The notes below the pieces were generated by a model. That model saw nothing but the letters and a program-made list of their open reading frames with translations, was not told the origin of the DNA and made no database searches. Positions 12,072-62,470 of a DNA stretch of 64,000 nucleotides are shown here, one piece after another. The DNA is from Halomonas salipaludis (GTDB lineage Bacteria; Pseudomonadota; Gammaproteobacteria; Pseudomonadales; Halomonadaceae): assembly GCF_002286975.1 (NCBI RefSeq), contig NZ_NSKB01000002.1, forward strand, positions 62,001-126,000, given 5' to 3'. Position 1 is the stretch's first letter; every line of letters starts with the position of its first letter. Both the position numbers and the translations under genes were made by a program.

Positions 12072-12185
12072 GAGGTGGCCCCCGACAGCCACATCCCGGC
12101 ACACGCAGCCACCACTACCGTTGCTCCCTTCCGGGCCTGGCGGGGTTCGCAGTTTAGCGTTGCGGGAGGACCGACGAGGGCCACC
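12072..12185 (-). ncRNA. ffs: Signal recognition particle 4.5S RNA
   Basis: On the minus strand a long hairpin opens with GGTGGCCCTCGTCGG and closes with CCGACAGGGGGCCACC read on the complementary arm. The highly conserved apical part contains CGGAAGGGAGCA, which matches the GGAA tetraloop and Ffh-binding symmetric/asymmetric loops of bacterial SRP RNA, and the family piece CTCCCGCAACGC. It is about 114 nucleotides, the usual small-SRP-RNA length. It lies upstream of dnaX. The ends are assigned from the terminal stem to within a few bases. Confidence 0.93.
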
Positions 12186-12429: not shown

Positions 12430-13653
12430 ATGACCAAGGATCCCAACAAGGGCTATATCGCGCTTCTGGGCTGGAGCTTGAGTGCGGTAGAAGCCGCCGA
12501 AAACTTCGACCGCCGTTACGTGGTAGTGGCCCCGGACTGGGCCGAGGAATATTGCGAGAAGCACGATATACCCTACCTATCGTGGAACTTCGAGCGCCTG
12601 AACGACCGTTCCATGGAGATCGCCGAAACGCTGCAGGAGATGGGCGTCGACGTGGCCATCCCGCTGTATGAAGAGACCGTCGAGTGGGCTGGGGCGATCA
12701 ACTCGGTATTGCTCGACAACCCGCGTCTTTATGGCCAGTCGCTGCTGCTGCGCGACAAGGCGCTGATGAAGCGCCGTGCCCAGCTCGGCGGCATTCGCGT
12801 GGGTATCTTCGAGGAAGCCCACGACAAAGAAGATGTGGTGCGCTTCCTCAAGCGCGTCAACCAGACCCTGCTCAAGCTCGACGGTGACCCCAACGACCCG
12901 ATCCACCTCAAGGCCTTCGACAAGGCCGGCTGCCTCGGTCACCGGGTGATCCGTACCCCAGACGAGGTGGATTCGATCCCCGACGAGGAGTTCCCGGTGC
13001 TCATGGAGTCCCACCTCGATGGCTGGGAGTTCGCCGTCGAGGCCTGGATCCACAACGGCAAGATCGTCTTCCTCAACATCTCCGAGTACGTGACCCTGGG
13101 CTACTCGGTGTTCGTCCCGGCCTCGCCGGAGCTGGAGCGCTATCGCCCCCAGATCACCGCGCAGATCGAGAAACTGATCAAGACCTTCGACATCGAGTTC
13201 GGGCTGATCCACCCCGAGTACTTCGTCACCAGCGACGGTGAGATGTACTTCGGCGAAGTCGCCTACCGCCCGCCGGGCTTCAAGGTCTTCGAACTGCTCG
13301 AGCGGGTCTACGGCTTCAACGCCTATCAGGCCTCGATGCTGGTGTTCGACCCCAAGGCCAGCACCGAGGAGGTCAAGGCATTCTTCCCCAGGGAGGTCGA
13401 GGATGCCAACGGCTATGCCGGCTGCTTCGGCGTCTACCCGCGTCGCCGCGTGGTCAGCCGCCTGGAGATCCCCGAAGAGGTCGAGGACCACCCCTACTTC
13501 GAGTCCCACGAGCTGACGCCGCCAATGGAAGAGACGGTGACCAAGCGTACCGCCTTCGGCACCCACTGGGGGCTGATCTACTTCAAGGGCGAGGATCCTC
13601 ATCAGCTGCGTGACCTGCTCAAGCACCAGGAGGGTCTGGACTTCTATGTATAA
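12430..13653 (+). CDS. ATP-grasp domain enzyme, unknown substrate
   Basis: A 407-residue protein with an N-terminal Rossmann-like part (YIALLGWSLSAVEAAENF), a central nucleotide-binding region and the C-terminal ATP-grasp core: PVLMESHLDGWEFAVEAW supplies the acidic hinge, and HPEYFVTSDGEMYFGEVAYRPPG resembles the metal-binding E-x-N-x-R loop, with Tyr where Asn is usual. Such enzymes join a carboxylate to an amine or thiol using ATP. It resembles the biotin-carboxylase/carnosine-synthase branch more than RimK. GGAG seven bases before the ATG sets the start. The next gene follows by 31 bases and encodes a candidate papain-like protein, so a ligase-hydrolase pair is plausible. The substrate cannot be inferred. 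Confidence 0.78.
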   Translation: MTKDPNKGYIALLGWSLSAVEAAENFDRRYVVVAPDWAEEYCEKHDIPYLSWNFERLNDRSMEIAETLQEMGVDVAIPLYEETVEWAGAINSVLLDNPRLYGQSLLLRDKALMKRRAQLGGIRVGIFEEAHDKEDVVRFLKRVNQTLLKLDGDPNDPIHLKAFDKAGCLGHRVIRTPDEVDSIPDEEFPVLMESHLDGWEFAVEAWIHNGKIVFLNISEYVTLGYSVFVPASPELERYRPQITAQIEKLIKTFDIEFGLIHPEYFVTSDGEMYFGEVAYRPPGFKVFELLERVYGFNAYQASMLVFDPKASTEEVKAFFPREVEDANGYAGCFGVYPRRRVVSRLEIPEEVEDHPYFESHELTPPMEETVTKRTAFGTHWGLIYFKGEDPHQLRDLLKHQEGLDFYV

Positions 13654-13684
13654 TCCCTGGCAGAAACCGGGATAAGGAGTCGGT

Positions 13685-15730
13685 GTGAGCGAGCACCCTG
13701 ATACGAACAGTGCAACACAACCCCCAACCGACGGGGACAAGCTGACCGGCCTGCTGGCCAAGCTGGACGAAGCGATACAGCTGCTCGATACGGCCCGCGA
13801 GTTCGCCAAGCCAGGCAAGCTGGGGCGGGTGCTCGATACGGCGCGCCGGGTCATGATGCAGCCCGGCGGCTGTGCCGCGGTGGAAGCCCGCGCCGAGGCG
13901 CTGGAGTCGGCTGGAGTGTTCGTCGGCTCCGACTGGGCAACACCGCAGTACCTGGTGCCCTCGCTGACCACCTACGCGCTGAAGAGCGCCGATCCCAACA
14001 GCGTGGTCATCGAGTCGCTCAGCGAACTGCGCCTGCTGGCGGTGGCCATGGGCGATTACCAGCACCCGCTGATCTCCGCCGAACAGGCCCACCACTACCT
14101 GACCCAGGTGATGGCGCTGAACCTGTGGCTGCTGTTCGGTGCACCCAGCGAAGCCGAGCGCGAGACCCAGGGGCGCCTGGCACAGTTGCCCCGCCTGCTG
14201 TTTCAGCACCTCGCCGAGCGCATCGGTTACGAACATATCGTCGACCAGCTGATCGATGAAATATGGCGCATCCTGCGCCAGCGCCCCCTGCAGGTCGAAC
14301 CGGTCAAGCAGATGATCACCCAGATCGCCATCTGCCAGGCCAACCCGGCCATCGACCTGGGGGCCAGCGGCCAGGGCGCAGACCGCCTGGTCAGTTCGCT
14401 GTTCGGACCGACCCAGGCATGCCGCGAAGATCCGGGTATCGATATCTACCGGCAGCGGCTGGAGAGCATGGACCAGGCCGCCCTGCAGTACGAGGCCAGC
14501 GGCTTTGCCCGCGCCATGCACGACACCGGCCTGGTCTCGCCCTACCACAGCGTACTGATGCGCCACCTGCTCGAGCATAGCGACCACCTGCTGGCCGAGG
14601 CGCTGGGGCTCTCCTCCACCGGCCGCGACTGCCTGATGTGCTATCGCGAGCTGGTCCATGCGCTGATCCGCGGTGGCGTCTACCCGGCCACGCCGCAGGC
14701 CATCTACGGCCTGGCGCTGCTGCTCGAGCGCGGCATTCTCTATCAGCCGCCGGTCGCACCGGCCATGTGGCGCCAGCTCGGATTAACGCTTTCGGAGTGG
14801 TCGCAGCAGCGCCTGAAGATGGCCCACGGCGACGCGGTCTCACCGCGCGCGCGGCTGCTAGAGGGCGTGCTGTGCATGCTGGGGCTGCCCCTCGGCGTGG
14901 GCCAGGGCAACAACCCCACCTGTCAGTCGGCTCGCGCGCTGTCGATGTGGGCCTACAACGATCCTGACTATCTGCTGCAGATGGTCGCCTGGGCGGCGCG
15001 TGACGACGAGATCATAATGCACTTCGAGGGCCAGCCGATCTCGTCCCGCGAGAGCCTCTCTGGGGTTGCCACCGAACTGCCCATGGATCTGGATGCGGTG
15101 TCGCTGTTGGTGGTACCTCACCTCGATCGCATCTACGCCGAGATGGGGCGGCGCTGCATCGGCCGCGACGGCGACCCACACCGCTGGGTCAACCCCGAGT
15201 TCCACGGCTGGTGGTCGGGCCGCGGCTTTCGCATCAACGTCGAGGTGGCAACCGGTCAACTGGCAGACCTCGAGGACTTCCTGCGTCACTTCTATGCTGC
15301 TTACCACCCCTACTACAACGGCAACCAGCCACTGATCCACCCGCAGCCGGCGGGTATCGCCGTGACCGACAGCGCGGCACGCTTCATCGGCTGGCACGCC
15401 ATCACCCTGCTGCGCGTCAACCTCGACCCCCAGGACGTGATGCGTGTCTACTTCTACAATCCCAACAACGACAGCGGCCAGGACTGGGGCGATGGCGTCA
15501 AGGTCAGCACTGCCGGCCAAGGCGAACGCTTCGGCGAGGCCTCGCTGCCCTTCGAGCAGCTCGCCTCGCGGCTGTATATCTTCCATTTCGATCCGCTCGA
15601 GCGCGGCGAACTGGCCACCATCACCCAGCAGGAGCTCGACCGGGTGATCGGCCACGTGCACCGCAGCTGGGGCGCCGGCCGGGTGCCGGCCACCGACCTG
15701 CAGGCCAGTCCCGGGATCGACGGCGCCTGA
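13685..15730 (+). CDS. Large protein with candidate papain-like Cys/His/Asn catalytic region
   Basis: A 681-residue protein starting at GTG, with AAGGAG just upstream. Residues 1 to about 390 are mostly helical with no family I recognise. The C-terminal third carries a papain-like order of residues: Gln407 and Cys413 in GQGNNPTCQSARALSMW, His571 in GWHAITLLRV, and Asn592 in YFYNPNNDSGQDWG, the last resembling the NSWG segment of cysteine peptidases. A peptidase, amidase or acyltransferase of the papain/transglutaminase-like fold is the inference. No signal peptide is seen, so a cytoplasmic location is likely. It is probably co-transcribed with the ATP-grasp gene. Assignment of the triad is by eye and needs structure prediction. 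Confidence 0.6.
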   Translation: MSEHPDTNSATQPPTDGDKLTGLLAKLDEAIQLLDTAREFAKPGKLGRVLDTARRVMMQPGGCAAVEARAEALESAGVFVGSDWATPQYLVPSLTTYALKSADPNSVVIESLSELRLLAVAMGDYQHPLISAEQAHHYLTQVMALNLWLLFGAPSEAERETQGRLAQLPRLLFQHLAERIGYEHIVDQLIDEIWRILRQRPLQVEPVKQMITQIAICQANPAIDLGASGQGADRLVSSLFGPTQACREDPGIDIYRQRLESMDQAALQYEASGFARAMHDTGLVSPYHSVLMRHLLEHSDHLLAEALGLSSTGRDCLMCYRELVHALIRGGVYPATPQAIYGLALLLERGILYQPPVAPAMWRQLGLTLSEWSQQRLKMAHGDAVSPRARLLEGVLCMLGLPLGVGQGNNPTCQSARALSMWAYNDPDYLLQMVAWAARDDEIIMHFEGQPISSRESLSGVATELPMDLDAVSLLVVPHLDRIYAEMGRRCIGRDGDPHRWVNPEFHGWWSGRGFRINVEVATGQLADLEDFLRHFYAAYHPYYNGNQPLIHPQPAGIAVTDSAARFIGWHAITLLRVNLDPQDVMRVYFYNPNNDSGQDWGDGVKVSTAGQGERFGEASLPFEQLASRLYIFHFDPLERGELATITQQELDRVIGHVHRSWGAGRVPATDLQASPGIDGA

Positions 15731-18782: not shown

Positions 18783-19655
18783 ATGAAGAAGATTCAAGCC
18801 GTATACGGTGCCCCCCACGGCCACTGGGTCGGCGATGGCTTTCCGGTGCGCTCGCTGCTCAGCTACGACCGCCTGGGCGCCGCGCATCTCAGCCCCTTCC
18901 TACTGCTCGACCATGCCGGCCCGCATCGCTTCGGGCCAACCCGCCACTCGCGGGGCGTGGGCCCCCACCCTCACCGCGGTTTCGAGACCGTGACCCTGGT
19001 CTACCAGGGGGAACTGGAGCACCGCGACTCGGCGGGACATGGCGGCCGGATCGGCGAAGGCGACGTCCAGTGGATGACCGCCGGCGCCGGCATCGTCCAC
19101 GAGGAGTATCACGCCCCTGAGTTCGCCCAGTCCGGCGGCCTGCTGGAGATGGTGCAGCTGTGGGTCAACCTGCCGGCCCGGGACAAGTCCGCCCCACCGG
19201 CCTACCAGCCCCTGCTCGACGGCGAGATCCCGCGGATCGCCCTTCCGAATGAGGCCGGGCAGGTCAGGGTGGTCGCGGGCCGCTATCTTGATCGAACGGG
19301 CCCGGCGCGCACCTTCACCCCGATCAATGTCTGGGACCTGCGCCTGGTGGCCGGCGGCGATGCCCAGCTCGAGGTTCCCGAGGGGCATACCACCCTGCTG
19401 GTGGTGCTGGAGGGCACGCTGCTGGTCAACGGCGAGCGCATCGTCCGCGACGAGAGCGTGGTGGCCTTCGAGCGCCGCGGCGAGGCCTTCCACCTGGAGG
19501 CCAACAACGACGCCAAGCTGCTGCTGCTGAGCGGCGAGCCCATTGATGAACCGGTGGCCGGTCAGGGGCCCTTCGTGATGAATCACCAGGCCGAGCTCCA
19601 CCAAGCCTTTGCCGACTTCCACGCCGGGAAGTTCGGCAAGCCGAGGGGCGCCTGA
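18783..19655 (+). CDS. Pirin family protein (first copy)
   Basis: A 290-residue bicupin. The metal-binding motifs of pirins are seen as GPHPHRGFETVTLVYQGELEHRDS (two His near residues 60-62) and GAGIVHEEY (His and Glu near 108-110). Bacterial pirins can act as iron-dependent quercetin dioxygenases or redox-linked regulators. AGGAG precedes the ATG. First gene of a probable operon with a deleted hydrolase gene, a second pirin and an FMN reductase, opposite a LysR regulator. This context points to a response to quinones or aromatic electrophiles. Confidence 0.9.
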   Translation: MKKIQAVYGAPHGHWVGDGFPVRSLLSYDRLGAAHLSPFLLLDHAGPHRFGPTRHSRGVGPHPHRGFETVTLVYQGELEHRDSAGHGGRIGEGDVQWMTAGAGIVHEEYHAPEFAQSGGLLEMVQLWVNLPARDKSAPPAYQPLLDGEIPRIALPNEAGQVRVVAGRYLDRTGPARTFTPINVWDLRLVAGGDAQLEVPEGHTTLLVVLEGTLLVNGERIVRDESVVAFERRGEAFHLEANNDAKLLLLSGEPIDEPVAGQGPFVMNHQAELHQAFADFHAGKFGKPRGA

Positions 19656-19726
19656 GTCGACTCATGCCCCCGTCCCTGCCCGGCGATGGTCGCCGGGCAG
19701 GCCCTGACAGCGAAAGGAGCACGATC

Positions 19727-19855
19727 ATGTCTTTTACCTACAACCGACTCGACAAGGATGACGTGGCCCTGCTGATGGTGGACCACCAGCCCGGCCACCT
19801 GGCCGCCTATGCCAACCTGATGCAAAGCTATAACCAGCAGAGCCAGCTGGGCTAG
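19727..19855 (+). pseudogene. Internally deleted isochorismatase-family hydrolase remnant
   Basis: A 42-residue frame with a good ribosome-binding site (AAAGGAG). It begins MSFTYNRLDKDDVALLMVDHQPG, the N-terminus of YcaC-like cysteine hydrolases with the catalytic Asp of VDHQ. It then jumps to AYANLMQSYNQQSQLG, which resembles the extreme C-terminus of the same family (normally about 200 residues away). The catalytic Lys and Cys segments are missing, so this is most likely an in-frame deletion. The flanking pirin genes are intact. A strong hairpin follows. Confidence 0.7.
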
Positions 19856-19863
19856 GCAGCGAC

Positions 19864-19892
19864 CGGCCAGGGCGGATCCCGCGCCCTGGCCG
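19864..19892 (+). terminator. Strong hairpin after hydrolase remnant
   Basis: An 11-base-pair perfect stem CGGCCAGGGCG / CGCCCTGGCCG with a 7-base loop lies 9 bases after the remnant's stop. It is followed by TGTCATTGG with no U-run, so it may only attenuate reading into the second pirin gene. Confidence 0.5.
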
Positions 19893-19993
19893 TGTCATTG
19901 GTCTCGCAGCAATGCTCGCTCCCTGCCAACAGCTGGAAGGGCCTATGCTAGAAGGCCGAGCCTCTCTCCTTTTGCCCACAGGAGTCCCGAACC

Positions 19994-20935
19994 ATGAGCA
20001 ATCTCGTCAACGAACGCGAGCTCGCCACCTCCCTCGACTGCCCCGTCGTCGATGGCAAGCGCCAGGTGCAGCACGTCACGCCCCATAGCGCCGAGGTGGG
20101 CGGCATCCCCGTCAACCGTGCCCTGCCCCGCCGCCAGCGCCGGCTGATCGGCGCCTGGTGCTTCCTCGATCATATCGGTCCCGCCGACTTCGCCGCAGAC
20201 GACCCCGGCCTCAGGGTCGGCCCCCATCCGCATATCGGCCTGCAGACCTTCACCTGGATGATCGAGGGCGAGATCCTCCACCGCGACAACCTGGGCACCG
20301 CCCAGGTGATCCGCCCCGGCCAGGTCAACCTGATGACCGCCGGCCGCGGCATCAGCCATACCGAGGAGTCACTCCCCGGCGAGGCGACCCTGCACGCCGC
20401 CCAGCTATGGATCGCCCTGCCCGAGGCGGATCGCGCCACCGACCCGCGCTTCGACCACTACCCGACCCTGCCACGCTGGCAAGAGGAAGGCACCGAGCTG
20501 ACCCTGCTGGTGGGTGACTTCGCCGGCCACCGGGCCCCGACCCTGACCTTCTCTCCCCTGGTGGCCCTCGACCTGGCCAGCCCCCGGGGCGGCCCGTTGC
20601 GCCTGCCGCTGCGCGCGGATTTCGAGTACGGCCTGCTGCCCCTGGAGGGCGACCTGGCGATCGAGGGCGAGACCTTCGCCACCCATGAGCTGGCCTACCT
20701 GGGCCGCGACCGCGACGAGGTGACGGTGACCCTGCCCGCCGGCGGCCGGGTCCTGCTGGTGGGCGGCGAGCCCCTGGGCGAGGAGATCCTGATCTGGTGG
20801 AACTTCGTCGGCCACAGCAAGGCCGAGATCGCCGAGGCCCAGCGCGACTGGGAGGCCGAGAGCCCCCGCTTCGGCACCATTCCCGAGTTCGACGGCCCGC
20901 GGCTGACCGCCCCGCCGCTGCCCTGGAAAGCCTGA
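19994..20935 (+). CDS. Pirin family protein (second copy)
   Basis: A 313-residue pirin distinct from the first copy and more like the YhaK/PA3240-type branch. Cupin metal motifs are GPHPHIGLQTFTWMIEGEILHRD and GRGISHTEES. AGGAG is placed about 10 bases before the ATG. It lies between a hairpin that follows the hydrolase remnant and the FMN reductase gene, all reading in the same direction. Two paralogous pirins in one cluster suggest that they act on related substrates or form a heteromeric pair; that is inference. Confidence 0.9.
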   Translation: MSNLVNERELATSLDCPVVDGKRQVQHVTPHSAEVGGIPVNRALPRRQRRLIGAWCFLDHIGPADFAADDPGLRVGPHPHIGLQTFTWMIEGEILHRDNLGTAQVIRPGQVNLMTAGRGISHTEESLPGEATLHAAQLWIALPEADRATDPRFDHYPTLPRWQEEGTELTLLVGDFAGHRAPTLTFSPLVALDLASPRGGPLRLPLRADFEYGLLPLEGDLAIEGETFATHELAYLGRDRDEVTVTLPAGGRVLLVGGEPLGEEILIWWNFVGHSKAEIAEAQRDWEAESPRFGTIPEFDGPRLTAPPLPWKA

Positions 20936-53519: not shown

Positions 53520-53594
53520 TGGAGCGGGAAACGAGATTCGAACTCGCGACCCCAACCTTGGCAAGGTTGTGCTCTACCACTGAGCTATTCCCGC
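53520..53594 (-). tRNA. tRNA-Gly(GCC), copy 1
   Basis: A 75-nucleotide tRNA with encoded CCA. The acceptor arm GCGGGAA/TTCCCGC, anticodon GCC in CTTGCCAAG and T loop AGTTCGAATCT are clear. It is identical to copies 2 and 3. Confidence 0.96.
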
Positions 53595-53616
53595 ATAATG
53601 AAGCGTGGCAGCAAGG

Positions 53617-53692
53617 TGGCGTCCCATAGGGGGTTCGAACCCCTGTTACCGCCGTGAAAGGGCGGTGTCCTGGACCACTAGACGAATGGGAC
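53617..53692 (-). tRNA. tRNA-Glu(UUC), copy 1
   Basis: A 76-nucleotide tRNA with encoded CCA, acceptor GTCCCAT, anticodon TTC in CCCTTTCACGG and T loop GGTTCGAACCC. It is identical to copies 2 and 3. A short T-rich tract follows it on the plus strand at 53699-53705. Confidence 0.96.
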
Positions 53693-53711
53693 GCAATATT
53701 TTTTTGGTGCT

Positions 53712-53785
53712 TGGAGCGGGAAACGAGATCGACCGGGCTGGCGCACCAGCTCGCGACCGTCACATTGGCCTGCTCGGGTCTTACT
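53712..53785 (-). repeat. Degenerate tRNA-Gly 3'-end repeat, copy 2
   Basis: A 74-base unit directly after the CCA end of the second tRNA-Gly, closely matching the unit at 53445-53519. Its 3' end on the minus strand, CGATCTCGTTTCCCGCTCCA, copies the last bases of tRNA-Gly almost exactly. The third tRNA-Gly has no such unit. Confidence 0.7.
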
Positions 53786-53860
53786 TGGAGCGGGAAACGA
53801 GATTCGAACTCGCGACCCCAACCTTGGCAAGGTTGTGCTCTACCACTGAGCTATTCCCGC
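53786..53860 (-). tRNA. tRNA-Gly(GCC), copy 2
   Basis: Identical to copy 1 in sequence: GCGGGAA acceptor, GCC anticodon and encoded CCA. Confidence 0.96.
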
Positions 53861-53887
53861 TTGTATCGCAACCTATCGATGATCGAG

Positions 53888-53963
53888 TGGCGTCCCATAG
53901 GGGGTTCGAACCCCTGTTACCGCCGTGAAAGGGCGGTGTCCTGGACCACTAGACGAATGGGAC
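53888..53963 (-). tRNA. tRNA-Glu(UUC), copy 2
   Basis: Identical to copy 1: anticodon TTC, encoded CCA, 76 nucleotides. Confidence 0.96.
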
Positions 53964-53980
53964 GCAGCGCTTGCGGTTCT

Positions 53981-54055
53981 TGGAGCGGGAAACGAGATTC
54001 GAACTCGCGACCCCAACCTTGGCAAGGTTGTGCTCTACCACTGAGCTATTCCCGC
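53981..54055 (-). tRNA. tRNA-Gly(GCC), copy 3
   Basis: Identical to copy 1, preceded on the minus strand by tRNA-Glu copy 3 with a 45-base spacer. Confidence 0.96.
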
Positions 54056-54100
54056 GCAGGCCCTTCACCAACCGATCATCCAGCACCTGACGAGAGGAAG

Positions 54101-54176
54101 TGGCGTCCCATAGGGGGTTCGAACCCCTGTTACCGCCGTGAAAGGGCGGTGTCCTGGACCACTAGACGAATGGGAC
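54101..54176 (-). tRNA. tRNA-Glu(UUC), copy 3
   Basis: The first gene of the tRNA array in transcription order. Sequence is the same as copies 1 and 2. The array promoter should lie between 54177 and about 54320 on the minus strand. Confidence 0.96.
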
Positions 54177-61948: not shown

Positions 61949-62470
61949 TCAGGGCAGACGGACTAGGAAGCCATACTGAAAGACGAGCGTCACGATGGCG
62001 GCTACCAGCACTGCCTGTAGTAGCGCCAGGACTAGGCTACGCCACAGCCTTCGGGGCTTATCCGACAGCACGGTTTCGAAGATGACGATCGATGCCCACA
62101 CATACAGCCCCGTGGCGAGCCAGAATGGCAGCCAACCCAGCAGGACCAGGGTGTACATCAAGGCCAGCGCAATCATCGCCCATAGCCGGCGCGACTCTAC
62201 GCTGGCGATCAGCATTCTCCACGAGGTGTGTTGCGATAGCTTGCCCAGCGCGCCCTGCTTCGCCGCACGCCAGCCGAGCAATGCGCCGCATAGTGCCAAC
62301 AGCCCTCCCAACAGCAGCGGCACAACCCCTGGTGCCACCCACGGGTGCACACCACGGTTGGCAAAGCGGGGCATTTCCCAGGCTGCATAGGCCACCGCCA
62401 ACCCCAGCAGTATGAAGACGCCGCCGGTAATCAGGTCGGCCCGGGCTGATTGCCTACCCTCTTCCATCAT
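61949..62470 (-). CDS. tctB: Tripartite tricarboxylate transporter small permease TctB
   Basis: A 173-residue protein with four membrane helices (LITGGVFILLGLAVAYAAW, WVAPGVVPLLLGGLLALCGALLG, LWAMIALALMYTLVLLGWLPFWLATGLYVW in pieces, LVLALLQAVLVAAIVTLVF). Size and layout are those of TctB. It has a GAGGAGAGG site and lies between tctC and tctA. Confidence 0.88.
   Translation of the reverse strand: MMEEGRQSARADLITGGVFILLGLAVAYAAWEMPRFANRGVHPWVAPGVVPLLLGGLLALCGALLGWRAAKQGALGKLSQHTSWRMLIASVESRRLWAMIALALMYTLVLLGWLPFWLATGLYVWASIVIFETVLSDKPRRLWRSLVLALLQAVLVAAIVTLVFQYGFLVRLP

Follow-up and report, generated by a model that had tools for sequence, protein, structure and literature searches.

A co-occurring ATP-grasp ligase and candidate papain-like enzyme in Halomonas salipaludis and other Proteobacteria

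In a 64,000-nucleotide stretch of the 5.48-Mb genome of Halomonas salipaludis (positions 62001–126000 of contig C12, hereafter the window), two neighbouring genes form a pair that occurs together in every surveyed genome holding more than remnants of either, and which could thus provide an entry to an undescribed metabolite or modification. Gene A (open reading frame at 12430–13653, forward strand) encodes a 407-residue ATP-grasp protein with a fold like that of L-amino acid ligases, and gene B (13685–15730, forward strand) encodes a 681-residue protein of an unnamed family with candidate catalytic residues of the papain type. We consider the chances evenly balanced that A and B are linked, mutually dependent parts of one cytoplasmic system for forming an amide bond and cleaving or transferring it, as a rule together with a third gene, here called D, that lies away from the window. 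The pair is not described among the matches listed in the literature searched, and survey literature on amidoligases may mention relatives.

Distribution and arrangement of the pair

The distribution of the two genes was followed in 151 genomes of the family, 369 of the class and 398 of the phylum, and in 80 named public loci, which are the best 80 of at least 539 and in which close relatives are over-represented. The class survey used profile searches, with A counted at E ≤ 1e-30, and the phylum sample was searched for B, with A looked for within the fetched B loci. At the class level, B is present in 13 of 369 genomes and A in exactly the same 13 (Fisher test, 3e-24, relatedness ignored). 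Two of these genomes are Halomonadaceae and the rest come from eight other families; when the two are set aside, B is found in 11 class genomes and A in the same 11. The phylum sample yielded B in 11 of 398 genomes, six of them Halomonadaceae and one from another class, and A lies inside the fetched B locus in all 11.

Raw matches in the family sample were slightly less even, with B in 99 of 151 genomes and A in 103, and no genome among the 151 had B without any match to A. An A match without B was seen in four genomes (G018, G026, G044, G150), where it is distant or a short remnant, and a fifth (G112) keeps remnants only of both genes. Elsewhere the genes are interrupted: A is split in two pieces in G009 and G117, the latter also having one split B beside an intact second B, and B is in four pieces in G136. 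With the first five genomes counted as lacking the genes and the last three as having both, 98 genomes carry A and B, none carries one alone and 53 carry neither. Wide occurrence of one gene without the other, which the preliminary description of this locus had named as counting against its reading, was looked for and not seen in either the family or the class sample.

The order and orientation of the two genes vary. Most commonly A precedes B on one strand, but the reverse order on one strand (L035, L036, L041, L150, L152), divergent pairs (L176, L179, L181) and convergent pairs (L147, L149) also occur, and in one genome (G437) A and B are unlinked and about 55 kb apart. There, A is immediately preceded on its own strand by a gene for an aldehyde dehydrogenase (L196, 9030–11952), whose resemblance to aminoadipate-semialdehyde dehydrogenase was judged by eye only. 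It is extremely improbable that A and B are mere neighbours brought together by common lineage. The Halomonadaceae locus is indeed inherited with the chromosome, so counts in that family are not independent; the class survey nevertheless contradicts coincidence, and co-occurrence extends over 12 families in the class and phylum samples together and over five arrangements, including the unlinked one. Over 21 paired loci, the B proteins differ by a mean uncorrected distance of 0.40 and the A proteins by one of 0.18, and the distances of the two proteins correlate (Pearson 0.68, reached in 0 of 5000 permutations), a correlation that shared ancestry alone can give.

Among the 80 named loci, a full A adjoins B in 72 and an A starting from residue 17 in one; five have shorter pieces of A, in four cases a remnant next to B and in one an incomplete copy at the distant end of the locus, and in the last two no A is seen. 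All five family genomes in which an A remnant lies beside an intact B (G039, G058, G079, G095, G128) possess an intact second A elsewhere, 79–80% identical. Similarly, extra copies of B (53–58% identity) often have no neighbouring A, and their genomes do hold one. From these remnants and extra copies we infer that the A and B proteins are required together and are able to work in trans. The surroundings of lone B copies at 19 loci revealed no conserved neighbour beyond overlapping-frame shadows and small same-genus groups.

Gene B, a candidate papain-like enzyme

Searches of Pfam, NCBIfam and PADLOC gave no match for B, whose matches to PDB sequences (E 0.29) and to PHROGs (E 0.098) are at chance level; the closest named relatives are Halomonas and Franzmannia proteins at 94–97% identity. 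The preliminary description had singled out Gln407, Cys413, His571 and Asn592 as papain-like, and all four are present at these positions and invariant in an alignment of 33 sequences (that of the window and 32 relatives, 40–83% identical), in which Cys413 is the sole invariant cysteine. The motifs Q-G-x-x-P-T-C and N-P-N are kept in all 35 catalytic-domain sequences. In papain the corresponding residues are Q19, C25, H159 and N175; B likewise has Cys, His and Asn in order with Gln ahead, and its spacing of six residues between Gln407 and Cys413 equals that of papain.

An AlphaFold2 model built from the 33 sequences (mean predicted local distance difference test, pLDDT, 87.2; predicted template modelling score 0.83) divides B into two parts. 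Residues 16 to about 400 are modelled as helices only, in agreement with the long helical N-terminus noted previously, and residues ~400–665 form the candidate papain-like catalytic part. There the candidate nucleophile Cys413 (codon at 14921–14923, forward strand, as are the other three) opens a helix (413–425), the candidate base His571 (15395–15397) lies inside a strand (567–580) and the candidate third residue Asn592 (15458–15460) stands directly after the next strand (586–591); Gln407 (14903–14905) would be the oxyanion-hole residue. The modelled arrangement of Gln-x5-Cys at a helix start, a His strand and Asn after the following strand is that of papain-like cysteine enzymes (Pfam clan CL0125), from which B differs in its odd helical part, in belonging to no Pfam family and in the lack of any sequence match to them, or whole-chain fold match at E ≤ 0.001. 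As for the separation of Cys413, His571 and Asn592, which the preliminary description had named as counting against its reading, the model is compatible with a papain-like placement at the level of secondary structure. The papain-like context proposed earlier for B thus holds for residue order and fits the modelled secondary structure, but no sequence or whole-chain fold search confirms it. Among the best 31 matches of a whole-chain Foldseek search in a viral library are three entries with papain-like, papain family or cathepsin in their names (E 0.22, 0.39 and 1.1), a hint of a papain link and no more. Bacterial C1 peptidases were found in 5 of 55 genomes, too few for building a comparison profile. 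Membership of B in the papain group rests on motif and topology, and on that basis we take B to be a putative papain-like amidase or acyltransferase; if it is papain-like, it would add to the superfamily a new family whose domain make-up is unusual. Readthrough or recoding was considered for B relatives flagged with one stop and rejected for the six inspected, in all of which the stop simply terminates the protein as usual.

B may act by hydrolysis or by acyl transfer. PMC10318531 places transglutaminases and acetyltransferases in the papain-like superfamily, so B might be a synthetic acyltransferase, similar to transglutaminases or phytochelatin synthase, that carries out a forward step after A and does not reverse its product. 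Retention of both genes would fit two steps of a pathway better than a futile couple that makes and breaks the same bond. However, the sequence of B does not decide between hydrolysis and transfer, and Transglut_core has no Pfam match at E ≤ 10 in the 35 catalytic domains. We regard a purely synthetic role as rather unlikely.

Gene A, a putative carboxylate-amine ligase

The ATP-grasp core attributed to A in the preliminary description is borne out by both profile and fold. A matches Pfam ATP-grasp_4 with E 7.1e-6 and 26.2 bits, 0.8 under the curated cut-off of 27 bits, and a Foldseek search of the PDB with its model (pLDDT 66.5) gave 340 matches at E ≤ 0.001, led by the L-amino acid ligases RizA (4wd3, E 2.1e-19) and BL00235 (3vot). 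These ligases are also among the three profile matches of A; they differ from it in sequence (15–19% identity in the fold alignments) and in that A goes with B. Residues 58–394 of A align with 56–398 of 416 of NCBIfam NF005543 (PRK07206, E 1.4e-7), nearly full length, but A is not a member of that ATP-grasp family, scoring 30.6 bits against a cut-off of 302. A LAL_C2 domain also falls below its cut-off (E 0.13, 13 bits against 29.4) and provides a weak C-terminal hint.

Conservation of A is strong, with 75–88% identity to the protein of the window across 15 loci of other families, and Glu263, Glu276 and Arg280 are invariant. The metal-site motif of ATP-grasp enzymes is E-x-N. A tyrosine had been suggested to replace the Asn in the stretch GEVAYRPPG, a claim that did not survive alignment: profile alignments set GEVAYR over EVGAR of BL00235 and ELTGR of 4dim, so it is Ala278 that occupies the Asn position, and Tyr279, which comes next, was rejected as an altered metal residue. 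All 21 aligned members read E276-V-A278 in place of E-x-N. Since BL00235 and 4dim likewise have no Asn at this position, the deviation is not special and does not exclude A from the ATP-grasp superfamily. We take A to be a probable carboxylate-amine ligase.

The relatives of A also bear on the possibility that the pair tags proteins or peptides, with A acting like RimK and attaching amino acids or peptides to side chains or C termini of proteins, B removing them and D deacylating lysines. Pairs of an ATP-grasp protein with a protease exist, namely RimK/RimB and the rloABC loci of Pseudomonas treated in PMC12239564, and the long helical part of the large B protein could dock a protein. RimK is, however, absent from the best 50 of 1568 fold matches of A and from its three profile matches, the proteins among those matches make dipeptides or act on small molecules, and no conserved peptide of at least 45 residues lies beside the pair in 20 loci. 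According to PMC12239564, rloB is an inactive transglutaminase. The rloABC and rim proteases are aspartic and the Rlo ones secreted, whereas A and B look cytoplasmic, neither sequence having a long hydrophobic stretch, and B retains its candidate catalytic residues. Tagging appears improbable.

Association with the HDAC-family gene D

D adjoins the pair in four families, each time in a different place: after B (L154), between B and A (L152), after A (L150) or facing B (L181). It belongs to the histone deacetylase (HDAC)-like amidohydrolases (Pfam Hist_deacetyl, E 9e-96, 321 bits against a cut-off of 27.9) and, by family, presumably uses zinc. Among solved structures it is closest to class II HDACs (E 5e-115) and the HDAC-like amidohydrolase HDAH (1zz0, E 3e-62). 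With the latter it shares the Hist_deacetyl domain and a PDB match, but D constitutes a separate subfamily of about 365 residues with an extra N terminus of about 45 residues.

Out of 106 genomes first listed, 80 were searched with a profile made from the four proteins beside pairs; 33 of these 80 carry the pair and 47 lack it, and full-length members were separated at E ≤ 1e-140 from a next match at 4e-82. D was present in 24 of the 33 pair genomes and in none of the other 47, being thus seen solely in pair-bearing genomes among the 80 searched. Leaving out the four genomes that had supplied the profile gives 20 of 29 against 0 of 47, and the contrast persists within the family to which the window belongs (10 of 17 pair genomes, 0 of 18 others). 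The genome from which the window derives carries D at C2:47863–48948. Where D lies away from the pair, 19 D loci (16 of them listed gene by gene) have no conserved neighbour.

In 20 pair loci, representing 11 families and two more lineages (13 groups in all) and searched for open reading frames of at least 45 residues, an HDAC-family gene is the only one to recur in more than three groups. It does so in five of the 13, the fifth being Methylonatrum (L130), where a different HDAC lies about 5 kb away. All other clusters were overlapping-frame shadows or a gene resembling peptide-methionine-sulfoxide reductase, which three loci have within a few kb of the pair (L129 4219–4833, L130 4450–5064 and L175 14061–14786). 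The association with D supports amide or acyl chemistry for the pair.

A second HDAC-family gene was observed about 1.4–1.6 kb before A on the other strand in the Halomonas-type loci L057, L066, L111, L118 and L121. It belongs to a subfamily other than that of D and is 68–72% identical to an HDAC-family gene of L032, one of three loci of a single genus (L032–L034) in which a lone B is accompanied by Hist_deacetyl, flavin adenine dinucleotide (FAD) oxidoreductase and transporter genes; in L032 (1–7552) an APC permease gene also lies in between.

These genes are relevant to an explanation modelled on the glutathionylspermidine synthetase/amidase GspSA, in which an ATP-grasp amide ligase is coupled to a papain-superfamily thiol enzyme. 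The preliminary description had likened the pair to this system, and the enzyme logic does fit; the domains do not, as neither the GSP-synthetase nor the CHAP domain that GspSA combines in one chain has a Pfam match at E ≤ 10 in A or B. The pair further differs in consisting of two separate genes, in the roughly 385-residue helical part of B and in the HDAC-like gene that often goes along. In a polyamine version, A would conjugate polyamines with a peptide or amino acid, B would undo this and an acetylpolyamine deacetylase would free the amine. In addition to the shared logic, HDAC10, a named polyamine deacetylase, is among the PDB relatives of D, low within the best 60 of 120 matches, and the 343-residue Hist_deacetyl gene near the lone B of L032–L034, by our reading an acetylpolyamine amidohydrolase, stands with the FAD oxidoreductase gene in surroundings that look like amine catabolism. 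Yet those three loci represent one genus and one event, the acetylpolyamine aminohydrolase chain 3men (E 1e-32) is a more distant match of D than are class II HDACs and HDAH, and polyamine conjugates leave the tie to ectoine genes described below unexplained. Overall, we judge conjugation to polyamines quite unlikely.

Association with ectoine genes

Ectoine synthase (EctC) scored over its cut-off in 13 of 13 pair genomes, compared with 53 of 369 class genomes overall (Fisher test, 3e-12, relatedness ignored), and in 11 of 11 pair genomes after exclusion of the Halomonadaceae (1e-10, relatedness again ignored). For EctB, all 14 of the pair genomes tested scored above the cut-off, and none of 14 control genomes did. 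On contig L152 the genes follow one another on one strand in the order B-D-A-ectC. Ectoine biosynthesis itself was rejected as the function of the pair because 40 of the 53 genomes with EctC do without it; the A-B pair marks a subset of ectoine producers.

Proposed function

The amide system that we favour for A, B and D would work in three steps. First, as suggested by its family, A would activate a carboxylate with ATP as an acyl-phosphate and then join it to an amine, as the L-amino acid ligases, its nearest fold relatives, do. Second, judging from the invariant residues and the topology, the Cys413-His571-Asn592 triad of B would attack an amide, with Gln407 in the oxyanion hole, and B would either cleave that amide with water or hand its acyl group on to a different amine, with substrate choice falling to the helical part of B. 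Third, D would take an acyl group, probably acetyl, off the same compound or its precursor. As substrate we think of a small compound of the amino-acid or diamine type, tied to salt-adapted, ectoine-producing metabolism, and not of a protein. More tentatively, and with considerable doubt, we suggest that an undescribed A/B/D amide cycle in ectoine-producing Proteobacteria synthesizes and degrades a new amide metabolite. This compound might serve as an osmolyte or store and might come from diaminobutyrate, acetyl-diaminobutyrate or a lysine-type diamine. Industry makes use of salt-tolerant Halomonas strains, and a new osmolyte or nitrogen-store pathway in Halomonas would, if real, be of practical use.

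Several observations count against this proposal. Seven of the 80 named loci have no near-full A beside B, and copies of B without an adjoining A occur in L031–L034, L037–L040, L042, L043 and others. For B, a whole-chain Foldseek search of the PDB returned mostly helical-repeat proteins, none at E ≤ 0.001; Pfam over the 35 catalytic domains together with a PDB profile search gave no match to a papain-clan family, and hhalign with papain gave a probability of 0.4%. The low pLDDT of the A model makes it a weak one. D was not found in nine of the 33 pair genomes (G001, G007, G009, G019, G054, G066, G096, G310, G528) and hence is not obligate. The order B-D-A-ectC comes from just one contig, 5.6 kb long, and the genome it belongs to is split into about 230 contigs and has 4% contamination. 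EctC is also present in 40 of 356 class genomes without the pair, so that the tie to ectoine may just mark salty habitats, and the Fisher values for both A with B and the pair with EctC take no account of relatedness.

Genomic context in the window

As described previously, A and B are both open and co-directional, with the lengths given above. The 31 bases between them (13654–13684, forward strand) include AAGGAG ahead of the GTG start of B, and a GGAG stretch lies shortly 5' of the start of each gene. Upstream of the pair are dnaX and, between dnaX and A, the gene for the bacterial small signal recognition particle RNA (12080–12176, reverse strand; Rfam RF00169, 71.6 bits), noted for context only. 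Downstream follow a PF05145 (AbrB) membrane-protein gene and an S4/FtsJ methyltransferase gene; from the identities of these flanking genes, the earlier statement that no biosynthetic gene is adjacent is correct. As to phage or anti-phage defence, the pair gave no PADLOC match and no PHROG match above chance level, and B gave no phage or viral match. B is on one plasmid record, a 1.83-Mb Halomonas record. Elsewhere in the window, two consecutive pirin genes are located at 18783–20935 on the forward strand, and six transfer RNA genes stand in a row at 53523–54176 on the reverse strand, where two alternating scores point to a probable tandem duplication.

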